From: Pseudomonadota bacterium
GTDB lineage: Bacteria; Pseudomonadota; Gammaproteobacteria; Burkholderiales; Rhodocyclaceae
NCBI GenBank assembly: GCA_018241725.1
Contig: JAFEDI010000110.1
Span: 20,655 to 84,654 of the forward strand
Length of the DNA stretch: 64,000 nt
Direction: 5' to 3'
The notes under the pieces were generated by a model. The model saw only the letters and a list, made by a program, of their open reading frames with translations, made no database searches and had not been told where the DNA came from. This document shows, in pieces, positions 37,394 through 47,175 of this stretch; positions within the stretch are counted from its first letter, which is position 1; each line of letters begins with the position of its first letter. The position numbers and the translations under genes are program-made.

Positions 37394-38287
37394 TCAGAAG
37401 ACCCGGTTGACCGACGCGATCCAGGTGCCGGCGTTCATGTCCTTGGTGGTGCCGTTGCCGGCCACGCTGGGGTAGTTCTTCCAGTAATCGGCACCGGCCG
37501 TCGTCGTATAGGCCAGGCCCAGCGTCCAGCTACCCGGCATGGCCTTGGTGACACCGACCTTGTAATCGGAATAGTCCAAGCCCTTCGAATTTGCAATGGT
37601 CTGACGACCGGCATGCAGCGTGGCCGTCCATGTCGGCAGGAACTCGTAGTTCACGTTGGCTTCGATGTACCAGGAGCCGGTGGTGTCCTTGCCGGTCACG
37701 CCCGCCCCCGGCTTGTTGGGGAAGGCACCGGGGCCGGCGTTGTTGTCGGTGAACCCGAAGTAACCCACATTGGTCATTGCCCGCGAATACTTCAGGTTGA
37801 GCCACTGCCAGGTGCCGGAGAGGTAGAACTCGGTGGAGTCGTAGGTCTTCTTGGCATAGCTGCCGGCCGGCGTGATCTTGTCGTAGTTGGCCTGCGGGAA
37901 GATGAACTGCAGCACCCCCACGTCGTAGCTGAAGTCACCCACCGCGCCGCGGTAGCCGCCATACAGGTCGACCTCGATGTTGGCGTTGGCGTAAAGGTTG
38001 CCGCTTGTGTTGGACATCCACGTACCCACGTAGAGGCCGGACGCATGAGCGTAATCCACGCCACCCTGGATCGCCGGGTTGCCCCAGGTCTGGCGGATGC
38101 CGCGGAACACGTATTCCGACACTACGCCGATGTTGCTGGTCAGTTCCGGAGCGGGCGCCGGTGCGTCCTCGGCATGGGCCGGCGCGGCCAGCGCGGCGGC
38201 GGCGATGGCCGGCAGCGCACAGTAGCCAAGGTGCCGGACAGCATTCCGTAGGGCGGTCTTCTTCGCGGGTTTCATGCCGGTTTTCAT
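37394..38287 (-). CDS. TorF-family putative outer-membrane porin
   Basis: 297 aa. Signal peptide with a basic start and the hydrophobic stretch CALPAIAAAALAAPAHA, then the family pattern ELTSNIGVVSEYVFRGIRQT and alternating beta strands to a C-terminal Phe (VNRVF), as expected of an outer-membrane beta barrel. GAGG lies 8 bases before the ATG. It is divergent from the amine-catabolism operon with 172 bases between the starts, so it may be the outer-membrane entry route for that operon's substrate; this is inference from position. Confidence 0.88.
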   Translation of the reverse strand: MKTGMKPAKKTALRNAVRHLGYCALPAIAAAALAAPAHAEDAPAPAPELTSNIGVVSEYVFRGIRQTWGNPAIQGGVDYAHASGLYVGTWMSNTSGNLYANANIEVDLYGGYRGAVGDFSYDVGVLQFIFPQANYDKITPAGSYAKKTYDSTEFYLSGTWQWLNLKYSRAMTNVGYFGFTDNNAGPGAFPNKPGAGVTGKDTTGSWYIEANVNYEFLPTWTATLHAGRQTIANSKGLDYSDYKVGVTKAMPGSWTLGLAYTTTAGADYWKNYPSVAGNGTTKDMNAGTWIASVNRVF

Positions 38288-38459: not shown

Positions 38460-40148
38460 ATGAACACGACGACAGTGGATGCCGTAGCGAGCGGCATCGG
38501 CGGTGCGAGCGCAACGCTCCACCGCAAGATCGGCTGGGCCGGGGCCTTCTGGGTGGCCAGCGGCGTCCCGGCCCTGGTGCTGTTTTCCATCGGCTCCATT
38601 GCCGCCACGGTAGGCAAGCCGTCCTGGGCGGTGTGGATCATTTCCATCGCCTTCGGCTTCCTGCAGTCCTTCTCCTACGCGGAGATCGCCGGCCTGTTCC
38701 CGCACAAGTCCGGCGGCGCCTCGGTGTACGGGGCGGTGGCCTGGGTGCGCTACAGCAAGCTGCTGGCGCCACTGTCGGTGTGGTGCAACTGGCTGGCCTG
38801 GTCGCCGGTGCTGGCCATCGGTTCCGGGCTGGCAGCGGGCTACATCCTGTCCATCCTGTTCGCGCCGGACGCGGCCATCAACACCTGGCAGATCACCCTG
38901 CTCGACCTGGGCTTCATCAAGGGCGGCCTGTCCCTGCGCATCAACGCCACCTTCGTGCTCGGCGCGGCGGTGCTGCTGGCCGCCTTCGCCATCCAGCACC
39001 GCGGCATCCTGCAGGCGGCGCGCATGCAGATGGTGCTCGGCATCGCCGCGCTGGCACCGCTGATGCTGATCGGCCTGTGGCCGCTGCTCTCCGGTGATGT
39101 GCCGGCCGCCAACCTGACCCCGCTGTTTCCGCTGGCCAAGGACGCCAGCGGTGCGGTGATCGACGGCACCTGGGACATGGGCGGCCTGACCCTGATGGCC
39201 GGCGGCCTGTTCATGGCGGCCTGGTCCACCTACGGCTTCGAGACTGCGGTGTGCTACACCCGCGAATTCCGCGACCCACGCACCGACACCTTCAAGGCCA
39301 TCCTGTACTCCGGCCTGCTGTGCATCTTCGTGTTCACCGTCGTGCCACTGGCCTTCCAGGGCAACATCGGCCTCGGCCAGCTGGTCACGCCGGAGGTGAA
39401 GGACGCCGCCGGCAACGTGGTCACCCCGGCGGTATACGACGGCATCCTGTCGCCGGACATTTACAGCGGCATGGGCGTCGCCCACGCCATGGCCCACATG
39501 CTGGGCGGCGGCGCGCTGGTCGAGCACGTGCTGATGGCGATGCTGGTGCTGGCCCTGGTGCTGTCCATCATGACCTCGATGGCCGGCTCCTCGCGCACCC
39601 TCTACCAGGCTTCCGCCGACGGCTGGCTGCCCAAGTATCTGTCCCACGTGAATGCCAACGGCGCGCCGATCCCGGCGATGTGGACCGACCTCGGCTTCAA
39701 CCTGATCCTGCTGCTGATGTCCGACTACGTCTTCGTGCTGGCCATCTCCAACGTCTGCTACATCCTCTTCAACTTCCTCAACCTCAACGCCGCCTGGATC
39801 CACCGCCTCGACCGCCCGAGCTGGCCGCGCCCGTTCAAGGCACCGCTGTGGCTGATCGCCATCGGCACCGTGCTGGCCTTCGCCAACCTGTGGCTGATGG
39901 GCATGGGCGCCGACATCTGGGGCGCCGGCACGCTGGCCTCCGGCCTGCTCGTCGCCGCGCTGATCGTGCCGGTCTTCCTGTACCGCCACTACGTCACCGA
40001 CAAGGGCCAGTTCCCCGCCGCGATGCAGGAGGACATGCACCTCGGCAGCGAAGAAGGCGTCGGCACCCGCGCCGGCATCCTGCCCTACCTGACCCTCGCC
40101 GGCGGCGCCGCGGTGGTGGCCATCGCCCACGCCTGTGCGGTGATCTGA
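38460..40148 (+). CDS. APC-superfamily permease, first gene of the amine operon
   Basis: 562 aa with about 12 membrane segments, larger than usual because of an extended outside loop (VTPEVKDAAGNVVTPAVYDG). N-terminal HRKIGWAGAFWVASGVP fits amino acid/polyamine transporters. A GAGGAG site lies 8 bases before the ATG at 38460; longer in-frame readings to 38274 lack one. It heads an operon with three dimethylamine monooxygenase-type subunits, a flavin monooxygenase pair and an amine demethylase-like protein, so it probably imports an N-methylated amino acid or amine. 11 bases separate it from the next gene. Confidence 0.9.
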   Translation: MNTTTVDAVASGIGGASATLHRKIGWAGAFWVASGVPALVLFSIGSIAATVGKPSWAVWIISIAFGFLQSFSYAEIAGLFPHKSGGASVYGAVAWVRYSKLLAPLSVWCNWLAWSPVLAIGSGLAAGYILSILFAPDAAINTWQITLLDLGFIKGGLSLRINATFVLGAAVLLAAFAIQHRGILQAARMQMVLGIAALAPLMLIGLWPLLSGDVPAANLTPLFPLAKDASGAVIDGTWDMGGLTLMAGGLFMAAWSTYGFETAVCYTREFRDPRTDTFKAILYSGLLCIFVFTVVPLAFQGNIGLGQLVTPEVKDAAGNVVTPAVYDGILSPDIYSGMGVAHAMAHMLGGGALVEHVLMAMLVLALVLSIMTSMAGSSRTLYQASADGWLPKYLSHVNANGAPIPAMWTDLGFNLILLLMSDYVFVLAISNVCYILFNFLNLNAAWIHRLDRPSWPRPFKAPLWLIAIGTVLAFANLWLMGMGADIWGAGTLASGLLVAALIVPVFLYRHYVTDKGQFPAAMQEDMHLGSEEGVGTRAGILPYLTLAGGAAVVAIAHACAVI

Positions 40149-40159
40149 GGAGAACGACC

Positions 40160-40741
40160 ATGCTGCATTCCGACATCAAGAGCCGCCCCATCTACACCCA
40201 GCTGGAGCCGGACCTGTCCGGCAGCCAGCACCTGCTGATCGTCGAAGGCGACACCGTGCTGCCGGGCCGCCTCGACTCCCTGGCCGGCACCTTCGCCCCG
40301 GTGGAAGAACAGCTGCACACCTGGCTGGTCGGCACTCAGGCCGGCGGCCTGGGCCTCGGCAAGGTATGGCGCCTGCCCGACGTGGCCGACGTGGTCGATG
40401 CCTTCGCCTGTGCCACCCGCGGCTACGGCATCGGCGACCGCCTCTACGTGCAGGGCACCGAGCCCTTCCTGTGGTCGGTGGCCAAGGCCGCGGCAATCAT
40501 CGGCTTCAGCGCCGACCAGATCCACCTGCACCACGCCGGCAGCCTGCGCCGCCGGGTGTGGTGCACCCACTGCCATACCGTCACCGAAAACGTCACCACC
40601 AGCATCGCCAGCTGTGCCGGCTGCCACCGCCATCTGCTGGTGCGCGACCACTTCTCCCGCCGCCTTGGCGCCTTCATGGGCGTGATGGTGGATGCGGAAG
40701 CCCCGGGTGAAGTGCCGGCCGTCGAGGAGAACTTCGCATGA
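40160..40741 (+). CDS. dmmA: Dimethylamine monooxygenase subunit DmmA family protein
   Basis: 193 aa. Matches the DmmA family: an N-terminal alpha/beta part and a C-terminal zinc-ribbon with CTHC and CAGC spaced about 20 residues apart, followed by the conserved HFSRRLGAFMGV. In characterised methylotrophs DmmABC oxidises dimethylamine to methylamine and formaldehyde with NADPH. GAGGAGA precedes the ATG. The stop overlaps the start of the reductase gene by four bases (ATGA). The true substrate here may be another secondary amine. Confidence 0.85.
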   Translation: MLHSDIKSRPIYTQLEPDLSGSQHLLIVEGDTVLPGRLDSLAGTFAPVEEQLHTWLVGTQAGGLGLGKVWRLPDVADVVDAFACATRGYGIGDRLYVQGTEPFLWSVAKAAAIIGFSADQIHLHHAGSLRRRVWCTHCHTVTENVTTSIASCAGCHRHLLVRDHFSRRLGAFMGVMVDAEAPGEVPAVEENFA

Positions 40742-41688
40742 TCGGCGAAACCCTCCGGCTCAAGGTGGCCGCTGCCTGCGCCATCTCGCCCAGCCTGCGC
40801 CACCTGCGCCTGGTGGCGGCGGACGGCGGCAAGCTGCCTCCGGCGGCGGCCGGCGCCCACCTCCAGCTCGTACTGAAGGGCGCCACGCGGACCCACCGCA
40901 ACGCCTATTCGCTAATCAGCCGCCCCGGCGCCCGCGACGCCTACGAGATCATCGTGCGGCGCGTGCCCGCCTCCCGCGGCGGCTCGGCCTTCATCCACGA
41001 GCAGATCAAGGTCGGCGATGTGCTGGAAGCCGGCTGGCCCGGCAACCTGTTCGCCCCGGTGCGCACCGCCCGTCGCCACCTGATGATCGCCGGCGGCATC
41101 GGCATCACGCCCTTCCTGTCCTACCTGGCCGACTTCGCCTTCGGCGGCGCCGACTACGCGCTGCACCTGTGCTGCCGCGAGGACGAGCAACACGTCTTCG
41201 ACCCCTGGCTGGCCGGCAAGAGCGGCGTCAGCGTGCACTGGGACACCGACGGCCGCCGCCTCGACATCCCCGCCCTGCTCGCCGCCCAGCCGGTCGGCAC
41301 CCACCTCTATGTGTGCGGCCCGGCCGCCATGAACGACGAAGTGCTGGAACTTGCCGCAGCCGCCGGCTGGCCCGCCAGCCATGTCCATTGCGAGCACTTC
41401 GGCAGCGCCCTGTCCGGTGGCGAAGCCTTCCACGCCTTCCTCGCCAAGTCCGGCGTCGAGGTCAGCGTCGGCGAAGACGAGAGCCTGCTCGAAGCCATCG
41501 AACGGATCGGCGTCAAAGCCCCCTGCCTGTGCCGCGGCGGCGCCTGCGGCGTGTGCGTGACGCCACTGCTGGAGGGCGAAGCCGAGCACCGCGACCACTA
41601 CCTGTCCGCCGCCGAGCGGGAAGCCGGCCGCCTGATCCTGCCCTGCGTGTCGCGGGCGCGGAGCGGACGGCTGGTTCTGGACCTGTGA
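40738..41688 (+). CDS. PDR/VanB family oxidoreductase, reductase subunit of the amine monooxygenase
   Basis: 316 aa, a phthalate-dioxygenase-reductase type protein. An FMN-binding barrel (about 1-105), an NAD(P)-binding domain (about 110-225; IAGGIGITPFLSYL), and a C-terminal plant-type 2Fe-2S domain with CLCRGGACGVC and a final LPC. It carries electrons from NAD(P)H to the haem subunit encoded next. The same reductase type accompanies DmmA and the haem N-demethylase in dimethylamine monooxygenases. Start overlaps the dmmA stop (ATGA). Confidence 0.92.
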   Translation: MIGETLRLKVAAACAISPSLRHLRLVAADGGKLPPAAAGAHLQLVLKGATRTHRNAYSLISRPGARDAYEIIVRRVPASRGGSAFIHEQIKVGDVLEAGWPGNLFAPVRTARRHLMIAGGIGITPFLSYLADFAFGGADYALHLCCREDEQHVFDPWLAGKSGVSVHWDTDGRRLDIPALLAAQPVGTHLYVCGPAAMNDEVLELAAAAGWPASHVHCEHFGSALSGGEAFHAFLAKSGVEVSVGEDESLLEAIERIGVKAPCLCRGGACGVCVTPLLEGEAEHRDHYLSAAEREAGRLILPCVSRARSGRLVLDL

Positions 41689-41719
41689 CATCCCCCTGAG
41701 CGCCCCCGAGGAGATCGAC

Positions 41720-42796
41720 ATGAGCATCGCTTTCAAACCCGAAGAAACCTTCCGCGGCGACTACAGCTACCGCAACAGCGACGCCGCCGTGCTGCGCTTC
41801 CCTTTCCCTTTCCCGGAAGACCGCTACATGTACAGCGTCAATATCGAGCCGCACGTACGCAGTGGCCCGAGCGACGTCTTCCTGCGCCCCTTCGACGTGG
41901 ATGAGCACTACATCGCCGAGTGCCGCGACAAGGCCATCACGCTGGAGCGCGACCCCGGCCGCTGCCAGGTGCTTCCGCACATGATGATGGCCCAGTGGGA
42001 CACCCTGGAGCTGCTGATGGAGAGCCTGTCCGCCGACTATCCGGAGCAGTTCTCCCTGATCAAGGAAGGCGACGACTTCGGCAGCCGGTGGACCTGGATC
42101 AACCGCCCGCTGGGCATCGAGCAGAGCTTCATCTTCGGCAATGCCGAAACCCTGCCCTGCGAACCCTTCGAGTACATCACCCGCCAGGCCCAGGGCGACT
42201 TCGCGATCTGCGACCAGCGCGACGACAACCTCTACATGGACGCCGGCATGGTCACCTCCCAGGCCGACTGGTCGCTGGAGTTCGATGTCGGCATGAGCTT
42301 CATGGAATGGCACGGCCCGGTGCCGCTGGCCCACCAGAGCGGCGTCTTCGAGCGGGCGCTGAAATACCTGCTGATGCTGCGCCTCGGCCAGCCGGTGCGC
42401 CGCCTCAATTGGACCATGAGCATCAACCCGCGTCTCGACACCTCGCCGGAGAGCTACCCCGAGTGGGGCCCGGACCGCGCCAGCGTCACCCCCGACAACG
42501 CCGGCCAGAAAGTGCACCTGCGTGTCGAGTTGCAGACCCTGTGGCGCCTGCCGCGCAGCAACGCGATCCTGTTCCCGATCCGCTGCTACCTGGCCTCCCT
42601 CGAAGACCTGGCCCGCGTGCCCAAGTGGGGCGCCCGCCTGCACCGGGTGCTGTCCTCGCTGCCGCCCCAGCTCGTCGAATACAAGGGCCTCACCCGCTAC
42701 CTCCCGGCCGCCCTCGAATGGCTGGCCCAGCACGACGACGGCCGCGAACTGCCCGTCGGCACCGAAGCCGGCATCACCACCCTCAGCCCGCGCTGA
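41720..42796 (+). CDS. Haem-dependent oxidative N-demethylase family protein (DUF3445)
   Basis: 358 aa. DUF3445 family, which includes the haem-containing catalytic subunit of dimethylamine monooxygenase. Recognisable parts are RYMYSVNIEPHV, the DWSLEFDVGMSFMEWHGPVP stretch, the His-rich MEWHGPV, and RLNWTMSINPRLDTSPES. It should perform the oxygen-dependent N-demethylation with electrons from the reductase. GAGGAGA precedes the ATG, 31 bases after the reductase gene. The assignment of catalytic role is by family; I cannot identify the haem ligand with certainty. Confidence 0.88.
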   Translation: MSIAFKPEETFRGDYSYRNSDAAVLRFPFPFPEDRYMYSVNIEPHVRSGPSDVFLRPFDVDEHYIAECRDKAITLERDPGRCQVLPHMMMAQWDTLELLMESLSADYPEQFSLIKEGDDFGSRWTWINRPLGIEQSFIFGNAETLPCEPFEYITRQAQGDFAICDQRDDNLYMDAGMVTSQADWSLEFDVGMSFMEWHGPVPLAHQSGVFERALKYLLMLRLGQPVRRLNWTMSINPRLDTSPESYPEWGPDRASVTPDNAGQKVHLRVELQTLWRLPRSNAILFPIRCYLASLEDLARVPKWGARLHRVLSSLPPQLVEYKGLTRYLPAALEWLAQHDDGRELPVGTEAGITTLSPR

Positions 42797-42862
42797 GACG
42801 CATCCGATCCATCCGCAAATCCGCATTCCACGACACCCCGAAACCACAAAAAGGAAACAGCC

Positions 42863-44245
42863 ATGAACGCCATCACCCAAATGACCCCCACCGGCATCGG
42901 TTCCGAATGGAGCCCCCAGTGGCTGCTCACCCCCGAGCAGAAGGCCCTGCAGGCCGACCTGATCGCCCTGTGCGAAACCACGCTGCGCCCCAACGCCATC
43001 GAAAGCGACAAGAAGTACGTCTATCCGCGCAAGAACTTCGAGGCCCTGGCCTCCATGGGCCTGCTGAGCCTGACCATCCCGAAGGAACTCGGCGGCCGCG
43101 GTGAGAGCCACCTGTGCGCCGCGATGGTGGTCGAGACCATCGGCCGCTACGGCTGCCCCTCCACCGCCATGTGCTACACCATGCACCTGGGTGCCTGCGC
43201 CGCCGCGCTCTTGCGCCACCACGACAACGAGCGCCTGAAGGACATCCTGCGCCGCGTCGACAAGGACGTGCTGATCGGCACCCTGTCCTACTCCGACCCG
43301 GAAACCGGCTCCCACTTCTGGTACCCGATGTCGTCCCGCGCCGAGCGCACCGAGAACGGCTGGAAGGTCTTCAAGAAGGCCTCGTGGACCACCTCCGGCG
43401 GCTTTGCCGACTGGTACATCATCCAGACCACCTCGCCGGACTTCGGCGGCGACTACTCCAACCTGTCCTGCTTCCTGGTCACCAAGGACCAGATCCACGC
43501 CGACCCGGCCAACTGGGACGGCCTCGGCATGCGCGGCAACCAGTCCGGCCCGATCTCGGTGGACGGCGTCGAGATCGCCCAGGACGCGCTGGTCGGCCCG
43601 ATCGGCGACGGCGCCAAGTCCAACGACGAAGTGGTCGACCCCTTCTTCCTGGTGTGCTCCTCCGCGTGCTGGAACGGCATCTGCCTCGCCGCGATGGACA
43701 TCACCAAGAACCACACCACCCGCAAGGTGCATAACGATGTGGGCATGCGCGTGGCCGACTATCCGACCATCCAGGACTACGTCGGCGAGTGCCTGATCGA
43801 CACCAACGCCAGCCGCAGCTACGTGTATCTGGCCGCCAAGGCGCTGGACGAGCAGACCAACAACTGCGACTGGTCCGCCCACGCCAAGATCGACCACCTG
43901 CCGCGCACCGAGCTGCTCAACTGGCTGTGGCAGGTCAAGTTCTTCGCCTCCAAGAACGTCACCTTCGTGGTGGACAAGATGCTCCACGCCTGCGGCGGCA
44001 CCGGCTACAAGCCGGCCCTCGGCATCGAGCGCCTGCTGCGCGACGGCAAGGCCGGCTGGGTGATGGGCCCCACCAACGAAGTGCTGCGCCAGTTCGTCGG
44101 CAAGGCCGCGCTGCTCGGCTTCGAGGTGCTGGACTACTGGAACCAGTCGGTCAACCAGCGCGTTCTCAACAACGAACTGAAGAAGATGAGCAAGGAAGAG
44201 AAGGCTGCCTTCGCCTCCAAGCTCCTCGCCGAGGCGCAAGCCTAA
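42863..44245 (+). CDS. Acyl-CoA dehydrogenase-fold flavoprotein, probable flavin-dependent monooxygenase
   Basis: 460 aa with the full ACAD fold (LTIPKELGGRG; GTLSYSDPETGSHFWYP; HACGGTGYKPALGIERLLRD). The position of the catalytic Glu in medium-chain dehydrogenases (the E of YEGT) is Gly402 here (WVMGPTNE), and the alternative isovaleryl-type Glu is not seen either. Such loss is typical of class D two-component flavin monooxygenases (DszC/HsaA type), and the next gene encodes a flavin reductase. It is therefore more likely to oxygenate an amine than to dehydrogenate a CoA ester. AAGGAAA precedes the ATG. Confidence 0.85.
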   Translation: MNAITQMTPTGIGSEWSPQWLLTPEQKALQADLIALCETTLRPNAIESDKKYVYPRKNFEALASMGLLSLTIPKELGGRGESHLCAAMVVETIGRYGCPSTAMCYTMHLGACAAALLRHHDNERLKDILRRVDKDVLIGTLSYSDPETGSHFWYPMSSRAERTENGWKVFKKASWTTSGGFADWYIIQTTSPDFGGDYSNLSCFLVTKDQIHADPANWDGLGMRGNQSGPISVDGVEIAQDALVGPIGDGAKSNDEVVDPFFLVCSSACWNGICLAAMDITKNHTTRKVHNDVGMRVADYPTIQDYVGECLIDTNASRSYVYLAAKALDEQTNNCDWSAHAKIDHLPRTELLNWLWQVKFFASKNVTFVVDKMLHACGGTGYKPALGIERLLRDGKAGWVMGPTNEVLRQFVGKAALLGFEVLDYWNQSVNQRVLNNELKKMSKEEKAAFASKLLAEAQA

Positions 44246-44259
44246 GGAGCCCCGCCGCC

Positions 44260-44790
44260 ATGCACGCCACCACCAGCCAGCCCATCGCCGCCCACCGGGC
44301 ACCCTTCGACGGGCGCCTGTTCCGCCGGGTCCTCGGCCTCTTCCCCACCGGCGTCACCATCGTCACCACCTGGGACGATGAGGGCCGGCCGGTGGGGGCG
44401 ACCGTCAGCTCCTTCAACTCCGTATCCCTCGACCCGCCGCTGGTGCTCTTCAGCCTGGCCAAGAACATGGCCTGCTGCGAAGCCTTCGCCGCCGGCGGGC
44501 CGCTGGCCATCCACGTGCTCGGCGACGAACAGGAGTCCCTGTCCAACCGCTTCGCACGGGGTGGCGGCGACAAGTGGGTGGATCTGGTCTACGGCGCCGG
44601 CGAGCATGGCGCGCCACTGATCGAAGGGGCGCTGGCCACATTCGAATGCCAGCCCTTCGCCCAATATCCCGGCGGCGACCACACCATCTTCGTCGCCGAA
44701 GTTCATCAACTGCGCTGCCGCGACGGCGAGCCGCTGGTCTTCGCCGGCGGCAGCTACCGGCGCCTGGCCGAGCGGGAGGTGTGCGCATGA
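44260..44790 (+). CDS. Flavin reductase (FMN-binding split barrel, HpaC-like)
   Basis: 176 aa. The family pattern FPTGVTIVTTWDDEGRPVGATVSSFNSVSLDPP is complete. These proteins reduce FMN or FAD with NAD(P)H and hand the free reduced flavin to a partner oxygenase; the ACAD-fold protein 14 bases upstream is the evident partner. The ATG at 44260 follows AAGGAG; the open frame extends upstream but only as a shadow of the previous gene. The stop overlaps the next start by four bases (ATGA). Confidence 0.92.
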   Translation: MHATTSQPIAAHRAPFDGRLFRRVLGLFPTGVTIVTTWDDEGRPVGATVSSFNSVSLDPPLVLFSLAKNMACCEAFAAGGPLAIHVLGDEQESLSNRFARGGGDKWVDLVYGAGEHGAPLIEGALATFECQPFAQYPGGDHTIFVAEVHQLRCRDGEPLVFAGGSYRRLAEREVCA

Positions 44791-46691
44791 ACGACCTCGT
44801 CCCGCCCACGGACATGGCGCAGGAAGGCGACCCCTTCCTGCTTGCTGCCGAGGCCGAACCGCGCTTCGCCCAAGACTTTCCCGAGCCGCTGGCGGCGATC
44901 CGCATCACCGCCGCCAGTGCCCGCGCTTTCGAAGTGAAGGCCGGGCAATACCTCCAGGTCATCGACGTGGACGGCCGCCAGTGCTCCGACCTCCTCGCCT
45001 TCGACGCCGCGGCCCTGGCCGCCGGCGAGGAATGGGGCCTCGACCCGACGGTGACGCGCACCCTGGCCGGCGCCGCCTATCCCCAGCCCGGCCTCCACGC
45101 CAAGTACTTCGACGCGCGCATGCAGCCGCTGCTCGAAACCGTGCAGGACACCGTCGGCCGCCACGACGCCTTCGCGCTGGCGTGCACCGCCAAGTACTAC
45201 GAGGATGCCGGCTTTCCCGGCCACGCCAACTGCAGCGACAACTTCAACGCCGCGCTGGCCAGCTTCGGCATCCGCCCGCGCGCCGGCTGGCCGGCCATCA
45301 ACTTCTTCTACAACACCTTCATCCAGCCCTGCGGCAGCCTCGGCTTCGCCGAACCCTGGTCCAAACCCGGCGACTACGTGCTGCTCAGAGCACTGAAGGA
45401 CCTGGTGGTGGCGGTGTCGTCCTGCGCCGACGACATCGACCCCGCCAACGCCTGGCAGCCCACCGATATCGAGGCGCGCATCTACGACGCCGCCCATTCC
45501 TTTCCCCGCGCGATGGCCCACCGCATGACACCCGACTCCCCCGTCCGCCTGACCCGGCCGACCGCCTTCGCGCCGGCGACCGAAACCCTCACCCGCGACT
45601 TCATCGACTACAAGGGCTACTGGCTGCCGCGCAGCTTCGTCGGCCACGGCACCCTCGCCGAATACTGGGCCTGCCGCGAGAAAGTGGCGGTCATGGATCT
45701 GTCGGCCCTGCGCAAGTTCGACGTCACCGGCCCCGACGCCGAAGCCCTGCTGCAGAAGGTGCAGACCCGCGACATGCGCAAGCTGGCTGTCGGCCAGGTG
45801 GTCTACACCGCCGTCTGCCACGCCCACGGCGGCATGATGGACGACGGCACGGTGTTCCGCCTCGGCCGCGACGTGTTCCGCTTCGTCTGCGGTGAAGACA
45901 CCACCGGCCTGTGGCTCAAGGAACAGGCCGCCGCCGCGGGCTTCAACGTGCACATCCGCGAAGCCACCGACGCGCTGCACAACCTCGCCGTACAAGGCCC
46001 GCGCAGCCGCGAACTGCTCAAGAAGATCCTGTGGACCGGCCCGCTGCAACCGACGCCGAACGAACTCGGCTGGTTCCGCTTCGCCTCCGCCCGCCTCGGC
46101 GGCCCCACCGGCATCCCGTTGATCATCTCGCGCACCGGCTACACCGGCGAGCTGGGTTTCGAGCTGTGGTGCGCCCCGAAGGACGGCCCGGCCCTGTGGT
46201 CCGCCGTGATGGAAGCCGGCGCCCCGCTGGGCATCGTGCCGCTCGGCTTCGACGCCCTCGACATGCTGCGCATCGAAGCCGGCCTCGCCTTCGCCGGCCA
46301 CGAATTCTGCGACCAGACCGACCCCTTCGAGGCCGGCATCGGCTTCACCGTCGCCCTATCCAAGCCAGACGACTTCATCGGCAAGGCCGCCCTCGAAGAA
46401 CGCAAGGCCCACCCGCGCCGCAAACTGGTCGGGCTCGCCATCGCCAGCAACGAAGCCGCCAGCCACGGCGACGGCCTCTACGTCGGCCGCGCCAGGGTCG
46501 GCGAAATCACCAGCACCACCCGCTCGCCGGTCCTCGACACGCAGATCGCGCTGGCCCGCGTTGATGTCGCCTACTCGGCACTCGACACCGAGCTGCAAGT
46601 GGGCCAATTGGACGGACACCGCAAACGGCTGGACGCAAAAGTCGTCGCATTTCCGCACTACGACCCGACGAAGTCGCGGGTCAGGACTTGA
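44787..46691 (+). CDS. DUF1989-GcvT fusion protein, TMAO demethylase (Tdm)-like
   Basis: 634 aa. The N-terminal third (about 30-250) is a DUF1989 domain with GRHD followed by Cys, INFF and VSSCADDID; residues 270-630 are a GcvT/aminomethyltransferase-like folate domain (YTGELGFELW, then DALDMLRIEAGLAF). This is the architecture of trimethylamine N-oxide demethylase, where a metal site in DUF1989 splits the amine oxide and the folate domain captures formaldehyde as methylene-THF. Here it would act between the flavin monooxygenase and the DmmABC-like enzyme. It is last in the operon and coupled to the reductase gene. Substrate unknown. Confidence 0.85.
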   Translation: MNDLVPPTDMAQEGDPFLLAAEAEPRFAQDFPEPLAAIRITAASARAFEVKAGQYLQVIDVDGRQCSDLLAFDAAALAAGEEWGLDPTVTRTLAGAAYPQPGLHAKYFDARMQPLLETVQDTVGRHDAFALACTAKYYEDAGFPGHANCSDNFNAALASFGIRPRAGWPAINFFYNTFIQPCGSLGFAEPWSKPGDYVLLRALKDLVVAVSSCADDIDPANAWQPTDIEARIYDAAHSFPRAMAHRMTPDSPVRLTRPTAFAPATETLTRDFIDYKGYWLPRSFVGHGTLAEYWACREKVAVMDLSALRKFDVTGPDAEALLQKVQTRDMRKLAVGQVVYTAVCHAHGGMMDDGTVFRLGRDVFRFVCGEDTTGLWLKEQAAAAGFNVHIREATDALHNLAVQGPRSRELLKKILWTGPLQPTPNELGWFRFASARLGGPTGIPLIISRTGYTGELGFELWCAPKDGPALWSAVMEAGAPLGIVPLGFDALDMLRIEAGLAFAGHEFCDQTDPFEAGIGFTVALSKPDDFIGKAALEERKAHPRRKLVGLAIASNEAASHGDGLYVGRARVGEITSTTRSPVLDTQIALARVDVAYSALDTELQVGQLDGHRKRLDAKVVAFPHYDPTKSRVRT

Positions 46692-46732
46692 TGGTATCCG
46701 CTGCGTTGGGCACCTAGCCCGCCGCTCGGTTC

Positions 46733-47090
46733 ATGTTGTCCCCCCGCGTCCCCAAGTGGCCCAGGCTGCTTGGGGATGTTTGCTGTGAACGAAGGATGTT
46801 GCGGGCGGCGAGATCTATGTTGCGTGGTGAACATTCGATGTCGGCGGGCGCGCACTCCATGTTGACGACGGAATGTTCGATGTTCAGTGCATCAAGTTCA
46901 ATACTGTGTGGCCAACATCGAATGCACTGGGGCGCTATTAAGAAGTTGACGCTGGAATGGTGAGCAATGCGGCACTGATACTCGATGCCGAAGACTCAAC
47001 ATCGATTGTTCACGCAACAAGATGAAGATAGCAGGACGCAGTGTCGTGACGGCGGGCTGTAAACCTGGATGTTGACGGACAATGATCTAG
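46733..47090. repeat. Degenerate tandem array with 21-bp period
   Basis: ATG or near-ATG anchors recur at exact 21-base steps: 46796, 46817, 46838, 46859, 46880, 46901 (ATA), 46922, then 46985, 47006 (TTG) and 47069, all in one 21-base register. A rough consensus is TCGATGTTGNNGNNGAACA. Two outlying copies at 46733 and 46776 are 1-2 bases out of register. About 13-16 units in all. An open frame crosses part of it but is broken by stops, so the array is a DNA feature rather than a gene. Confidence 0.75.
46749..46776 (+). terminator. Hairpin after the amine operon
   Basis: TCCCCAAG (46749-46756) and CTTGGGGA (46769-46776), perfect 8-bp stem, 12-base loop, followed by a weak T-rich stretch (TGTTTG). 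Probable operon end. Confidence 0.5.
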
Positions 47091-47175
47091 TCATACACGA
47101 TAAAGATATCGATGCAGGTCCAGCCCAAGAACAACGGGCCCTCCATCTTCTACAAGCTGCAAACTGAAATCCATC

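Follow-up and report, generated by a model that had tools for sequence, protein, structure and literature searches.

Trimethylamine (TMA) is oxygenated to trimethylamine N-oxide (TMAO) by TMA monooxygenase (Tmm), a one-component NADPH-dependent flavin-containing monooxygenase (FMO) whose fold is other than that of the acyl-CoA dehydrogenases (ACADs). Further down the route, the Tdm family cleaves TMAO into dimethylamine and formaldehyde, and the DmmABC family, or haem-dependent oxidative N-demethylases (HODM), converts dimethylamine into methylamine. The group D two-component flavin monooxygenases (HpaB, HsaA, DszC and Dms1-3) rely instead on an ACAD-fold oxygenase and a separate flavin reductase, and we know of no member that forms a tertiary amine N-oxide in the TMA pathway. 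The element analysed here is a seven-gene operon at positions 38460-46691 of a 64,000-nucleotide stretch of DNA (contig JAFEDI010000110.1, hereafter the window) from a bacterium resembling Zoogloea. It encodes an ACAD-fold protein and a flavin reductase just ahead of Tdm, and this pair probably acts as a TMA monooxygenase of a second kind.

The published sources are cited here by PMC number, each for a portion of its text. These portions describe aerobic TMA oxidation via Tmm (PMC13390433, June 2026), work on Dmm and DmmD (PMC5520151), a tmm-bearing Aminobacter cluster (PMC11446756) and the group D flavin monooxygenases (PMC10696468). In another, Tmm is assigned to the class B flavin monooxygenases, and the group D, ACAD-fold Dms1-3 are described as oxidizing dimethyl sulfide (DMS) to dimethyl sulfoxide (DMSO), a close chemical precedent, with reduced flavin alone also yielding DMSO (PMC13352529). 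A literature search returned no ACAD-fold TMA monooxygenase in titles and abstract openings, most subscription journals and preprints being outside its coverage.

A candidate TMA monooxygenase in the place of Tmm

From gene content and the comparison of genomes, we infer, with a probability of about two in three, that the ACAD-fold protein and the flavin reductase form a second, non-homologous TMA monooxygenase that makes TMAO from TMA and feeds Tdm. The flavin reductase would pass reduced flavin to the ACAD-fold protein, which would oxygenate TMA to TMAO, presumably by means of a C4a-hydroperoxyflavin. TMAO would also be taken up by a TMAO permease, perhaps after passage of a TorF-type porin. 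Tdm would then release dimethylamine and formaldehyde, DmmABC would convert the dimethylamine into methylamine, and the methylamine would leave by the N-methylglutamate route, for which a gene labelled by inference as MgsC-like lies elsewhere in the genome. The operon as a whole would degrade TMA and TMAO. With this proposed role, the pair would thus replace Tmm without being homologous to it and would represent a new family among the group D flavin monooxygenases. It is the novel part of the operon, the other five genes being those of the known TMA route.

Compared with Tmm (NF058570; PDB 5ipy, 6kbw), the pair has the same proposed reaction and the same place upstream of Tdm, but its oxygenase component has an ACAD fold and a separate flavin reductase. 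At E 1e-20, the window's genome gave no Tmm match; the remaining steps of the TMA route are encoded there, and the step from TMA to TMAO is without its known enzyme. The pair resembles the group D enzymes in combining an ACAD fold with a flavin reductase of PF01613, and Dms1-3 are a further likeness in that they act on a small dimethyl heteroatom compound. However, the ACAD-fold protein scores far under the NCBIfam cut-offs of DszC, HsaA and p-hydroxyphenylacetate hydroxylase.

The ACAD-fold protein and its flavin reductase

The ACAD-fold protein (P0005; 42863-44245, + strand), the proposed oxygenase component, has Pfam matches limited to ACAD- and ACOX-type models (Acyl-CoA_dh_N, E 1.2e-17) and passes no NCBIfam cut-off, its top score being 195.7 against the 600 required by an acyl-CoA dehydrogenase model. 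Its fold is assigned by Pfam, by an AlphaFold model (mean pLDDT 82, pTM 0.84, weak at residues 146-153 and 220-225) and by Foldseek. The adjoining gene encodes the short flavin reductase (44260-44790, + strand; PF01613 (Flavin_Reduct), E 1e-41), the proposed supplier of reduced flavin, whose nearest NCBIfam models are of the FerA, HpaC and HsaB types, each match falling under its cut-off.

Scanning of genome contigs yielded 102 relatives of the ACAD-fold protein, from which 80 loci, 66-98% identical, were kept. Aligned with one another, P0005 and 45 proteins from the kept loci (46 in all) show 78% mean column identity. The catalytic Glu of acyl-CoA dehydrogenases (IYEGT motif) aligns with Gly402, a Gly in all 46 members, and the protein is without the residue expected of an acyl-CoA dehydrogenase. 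The alternative, isovaleryl-type catalytic position corresponds to Phe261; in helix G, Phe261 is present in 46/46 members and Phe262 in 45/46. It is therefore very improbable that the protein is an ordinary dehydrogenase of acyl-CoA, or acts on another thioester, and lies in the cluster by accident: the top sequence and fold matches are indeed acyl-CoA dehydrogenases, but the family-wide loss of the Glu, the low NCBIfam score, a flavin reductase neighbour in 44 of the 80 loci and a proximity to Tdm conserved across several phyla all argue otherwise.

A plasmid search with the ACAD-fold protein returned just four distant records (30.5-32.7% identity). Among 300 genomes drawn from the window's own order, no copy beyond the window's own was found at E 1e-100, so the family appears thinly spread in that order. 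A sister protein, 50% identical, occurs with a flavin reductase in two loci (L095:6121-15549 and L096:7496-15925), both of whose genomes carry Tmm and Tdm; in L095, Pfam matches identify its other neighbours as a cupin, a regulator of the AraC type, a DAO-GcvT fusion and an aldehyde dehydrogenase, and L096 appears similar by sequence. This sister may be a related monooxygenase that acts on some other N-methyl compound. In a metagenome-assembled genome (MAG) of 1.6 Mb labelled Euryarchaeota (L055), the ACAD gene is accompanied by a divergent flavin reductase, and no Tdm was found in the genome.

Gene neighbourhoods and co-occurrence

The sequence-only reading had called for a search of gene neighbourhoods, and this search brings out Tdm as the commonest partner, in 59 of the 80 loci, followed by the flavin reductase (44) and HODM alpha (29). 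Permease genes are found in 24 loci, ammonium transporters in 17, copper amine oxidase and a PhyH-type oxygenase in 13 each, an MgsC-like protein in 12 and Tmm in 2. Many of the contigs are short; when the count is restricted to the 52 loci of at least 15 kb, Tdm is present in 46, with 12/12 Zoogloea-like, 6/10 cyanobacterial and 28/30 other loci, these groups being defined by record titles and similarity. Labels checked against models are those of type III glutamine synthetase, PhyH and the copper amine oxidase, and those of ammonium transporter and Fhs were assigned by inspection. The labels MgsA, MgsB and MgsC (N-methylglutamate synthase) are deduced from a trio of amidotransferase, GXGXG and FMN-binding glutamate synthase-like proteins beside a type III glutamine synthetase; they follow the annotation adjoining a Paracoccus Tmm-Tdm cluster, NCBIfam giving no passing model. 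The cyanobacterial loci (L054, L078, L081 and others) have a content of their own, with Tdm in 14/24, copper amine oxidase and PhyH-type oxygenase in 13/24 each and ammonium transporter in 12/24, and few cyanobacterial ACAD genomes were found to have a full HODM alpha.

These neighbourhoods bear on the idea that the pair chiefly oxidizes DMS to DMSO and stands beside Tdm for shared regulation. Dms1-3 offer a precedent in the same fold, and Tmm too is described as oxidizing DMS in the portion of PMC13352529 cited here; yet no sulfur gene is found among the recurrent neighbour clusters that could be named (several are unnamed), which consist instead of Tdm, ammonium transporter and MgsC-like genes. 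This reading is the least probable of those considered.

Co-occurrence was followed in a set of 50 ACAD-bearing genomes, made up of the window's own and 49 that belong to loci among the 80; many are drafts or MAGs. Of these, 48 have Tdm and 26 have HODM alpha (once as a fragment), and the ACAD-fold protein thus tracks Tdm rather than DmmABC. The Tmm probe was taken from a Paracoccus plasmid; this gene scores 838.9 in the TMA monooxygenase model, above the required 675, and matches PDB 5ipy. At a threshold of E 1e-20 it found no match in 44 of the 50 genomes. The MgsC-like protein is encoded in 33 of the 39 genomes checked, including the window's, where it is 92% identical to an Azoarcus one. 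The six genomes without it are that of L051 and five cyanobacteria with copper amine oxidase in the ACAD locus; the five cyanobacterial genomes among the 39 that do have MgsC show no copper amine oxidase in the stretch of the ACAD locus examined. This alternation suggests that methylamine removal is supplied in two alternative ways, without need for the ACAD-fold protein.

Such data also bear on a later site of action, on dimethylamine or methylamine (for instance by N-hydroxylation) rather than on TMA. ACAD-fold relatives include the nitrososynthase-type DnmZ (PDB 4zxv), and 24 of the 50 genomes have no HODM alpha match, which leaves a gap at dimethylamine there. The window's operon, however, already has a dimethylamine enzyme and its genome an MgsC-like gene; five of the six genomes without MgsC are cyanobacterial and have copper amine oxidase in the ACAD locus; and the association is with Tdm, not HODM. 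A later step is accordingly improbable.

The association was further followed in 397 genomes of the order of Xanthobacter, the centre genome having been chosen for carrying the ACAD gene. Tdm is present in 85 of them. At E 1e-100, ACAD matches occur in eight genomes, six at 70-78% identity and two at 50%, and all eight are among the 85 with Tdm (Fisher p 8e-5 for the six and 3e-6 for the eight, uncorrected for kinship). Eighty of the 85 were tested for both Tmm and ACAD: Tmm is found in 72, and the three genomes with a close ACAD protein are all among the eight without it, the other five having no close ACAD protein. The two genomes with the 50% identical sister both have Tmm. The contrast between 6/50 and 72/80 in the frequency of Tmm is one between different taxa, with a single genome shared.

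Exchange between the two types of loci

The ACAD-fold protein and flavin reductase occupy, in the window, the place upstream of Tdm that Tmm takes in an Aquabacterium locus (L084; Tmm 66% identical to the probe) and a Paracoccus locus (L085), where it is directly upstream of Tdm. In a Rhizobium locus (L086), Tmm lies about 3 kb from Tdm on the opposite strand, and in L083 no Tmm was found in the stretch examined. A Tdm tree of 75 proteins was built by a quick search and labelled by locus (49 ACAD, 18 Tmm, 2 both and 6 with neither in the stretch examined). It has at least four changes between the ACAD and Tmm types, some rows being long-branched, and its starred branches force at least four changes of the ACAD label.

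An alternative close to the proposed one is that the pair N-oxygenates another small tertiary amine, such as another dimethylalkylamine, whose N-oxide is also split by Tdm, TMAO being imported ready-made. It draws on the TMAO permease in the operon, on the six of the 50 genomes in which Tmm and the new family occur together, and on the 50% identical sister, found near flavin reductase, cupin, DAO-GcvT fusion and aldehyde dehydrogenase genes in two Tmm-bearing genomes, which indicates that the family at large need not be limited to TMA. Against this stand the 44 genomes without a Tmm match, the frequent methylamine-type modules as downstream parts and the interchange of the two types on the Tdm tree, and we regard another tertiary amine as unlikely, though the least so of the alternatives.

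Several observations weigh against a TMA monooxygenase function for the pair. The two weak points are the genomes with both types and the reductase unseen in cyanobacteria. Tmm is present in six of the 50 ACAD-bearing genomes (three Labrys and those of L032, L040 and L080), which is unexpected under a simple replacement, and in L032 and L040 it lies inside the ACAD locus itself. None of the 24 loci from cyanobacteria was found to hold a flavin reductase; 14 of them span less than 15 kb. Within the order of Xanthobacter, the p value for exclusion of Tmm moves from 0.0007 to 0.011 once the three Labrys genomes with both types are added, again uncorrected for kinship. Tdm is absent from a Leptolyngbya genome (L053) and from the archaeal-labelled MAG, and in G336, counted among the 48, its frame is interrupted by a stop; with so many drafts and MAGs in the set, some absences may be gaps. 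Due to the permease, the operon could run on external TMAO. At the protein level, five solved ACADs were aligned, and the Glu is found in four of them (3pfd, 8i4p, 7w0j and 2dvl, with 8i4p and 7w0j apparently one protein); 7p98, an acyl-CoA enzyme, has Thr at this position, so loss of the Glu alone is not decisive. Nor does the fold separate monooxygenases from dehydrogenases: among the 50 Foldseek matches listed, ACADs come first and make up nearly all, with 5z8t, titled a flavin-containing monooxygenase, at rank 24, which leaves the question undecided on the basis of fold.

Published growth data were sought as well. The literature search returned no useful report of growth on TMA for strains that bear the ACAD protein and lack Tmm, the papers on Xanthobacter aminoxidans and Labrys being without TMA data; Starkeya novella is listed as non-growing on TMA, its ACAD status not having been tested.

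Tdm

The last gene of the operon encodes a Tdm-type TMAO demethylase (44787-46691, + strand; GCV_T E 9.3e-67, DUF1989 E 9.8e-45). Like Tdm (NF053776; PDB 9q59), it has the DUF1989-GcvT core with the Cys3/Asp/His metal site, and it matches 9q59 at E 1.8e-245. It differs in being without the N-terminal DUF1989-like domain and in scoring 1074.8 bits against NF053776, 25 bits short of the cut-off of 1100, over model positions 150-762 of 763. The farthest in-frame start adds 71 residues and falls inside the flavin reductase gene. The metal-site residues named for Methylocella Tdm (C263, C279, C343, H276, D198 and D346; PMC12560246) correspond, when matched by spacing, to C133, C149, C213, H146, D68 and D216 of the window protein; five of them are present in 67/67 aligned rows and D216 in 66/67.

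In the same portion of that 2025 paper, the N-terminal third domain is termed ubiquitous in Tdm homologs (PMC12560246). Judged by frame length only, no more than 113 residues fit ahead of the DUF1989 core in 13 of 14 Zoogloea/Azoarcus-type loci (221 in L010), and no more than 83 in 14/14 cyanobacterial loci, the latter leaving no space for the domain. Most Tdm copies of these two groups thus seem to be likewise without it. About 150 residues or more are available in nearly all other loci, except L035 (113), an open frame being no proof of a domain, and a short Tdm was rejected as a hallmark of the ACAD system.

The dimethylamine enzyme, permease and porin

The three subunits of DmmABC are encoded in the order dmmA-dmmB-dmmC. 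The DmmA-like subunit of dimethylamine monooxygenase (40160-40741, + strand) matches PF22289, PF22290 and NF041259 (104.4 bits, cut-off 60; DmmA-like_C E 1.8e-21). DmmB, a PDR-type [2Fe-2S] reductase (40738-41688, + strand), is identified by its position between DmmA and DmmC and by its reductase domains (Fer2 E 2.7e-13, with weaker FAD/NAD reductase domains). DmmC, the HODM alpha subunit (DUF3445; 41720-42796, + strand; PF11927 229.3 bits, HODM_asu-like E 7.3e-68), matches the haem-dependent oxidative N-demethylase of PDB 5lte at E 1.1e-147. Therefore the DmmA protein, the reductase and the DUF3445 protein make up a single enzyme, and the idea of a DUF3445 demethylase apart from DmmABC was rejected. 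Unlike described DmmABC systems, the operon has no separate dmmD (GcvT-only) gene, the search having covered the operon and not the rest of the genome. In Zoogloea dura, the minus strand carries a second dmmA-dmmB pair some 4 kb upstream of the permease gene (L010:1-1500), and a second HODM alpha is present in the genome.

The first gene encodes an APC-type permease (38460-40148, + strand; AA_permease_2 E 6.8e-65) that passes the TMAO permease equivalog NF053774 with 845.3 bits against a cut-off of 690. Divergent from the operon, and perhaps associated with it, is a putative porin of the TorF family (37394-38287, - strand; TIGR02001 140.5 bits, cut-off 47.15). All Zoogloea-like loci but one have it (13 of 14; the exception is L011, a contig of 3.8 kb), and it occurs in no other ACAD locus among the 80. 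A TorF porin also lies within the Tmm-Tdm cluster of an Aquabacterium plasmid.

With these assignments, the sequence-only reading stands in part. It had placed the pair in the position of Tmm ahead of Tdm and DmmABC, and comparative genomics now supports this placement through co-occurrence with Tdm, rarity of Tmm, operon position, the lost dehydrogenase base and exchange on the Tdm tree. Its haem N-demethylase as a system additional to DmmABC is given up, this protein being DmmC, and the N-methylated amino acid suggested as substrate from the permease type finds no support, given the TMAO permease equivalog and the methylamine modules near many relatives.

Operon layout and host

The seven open reading frames (ORFs), supported by ORF calls and Pfam, are collinear on the + strand, as originally described. 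Two junctions are ATGA overlaps, at 40738-40741 (dmmA/dmmB) and 44787-44790 (flavin reductase/Tdm), and the remaining ones are gaps of 11, 14, 31 and 66 bases. The closest named isolate by its ACAD protein is Zoogloea sp. LCSB751 (98% identity). The arrangement exceeds what chance would give, since the same gene order recurs in 13 of 14 Zoogloea-like loci, the short contig L011 holding three genes; in L009, Tdm is truncated by the contig end. Downstream of the operon, about 480 bases (46692-47175) are without an ORF of at least 90 amino acids and contain a single imperfect inverted repeat of 14 bases and a single direct repeat of 12 bases, both perhaps of chance origin.

Significance

It is probable, if somewhat less so than the function proposed for the window's pair, that TMA monooxygenase evolved twice, a reduced-flavin-dependent ACAD-fold type existing beside the FMO-type Tmm and being swapped with it repeatedly. 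By record titles, the ACAD-fold type would extend over Proteobacteria, Gemmatimonadota, Latescibacterota, Armatimonadetes and cyanobacteria, and would constitute a TMA/TMAO sink overlooked by Tmm-based surveys. Tmm is the marker by which genomes and metagenomes are screened for aerobic TMA oxidation, an example being the portion cited of PMC5520151. Two proteins and one substrate would suffice to test the claim directly. If it is true, a new type of enzyme making tertiary amine N-oxides would be at hand, and the distribution of TMA/TMAO turnover would have been underestimated, with cyanobacteria among the overlooked lineages.

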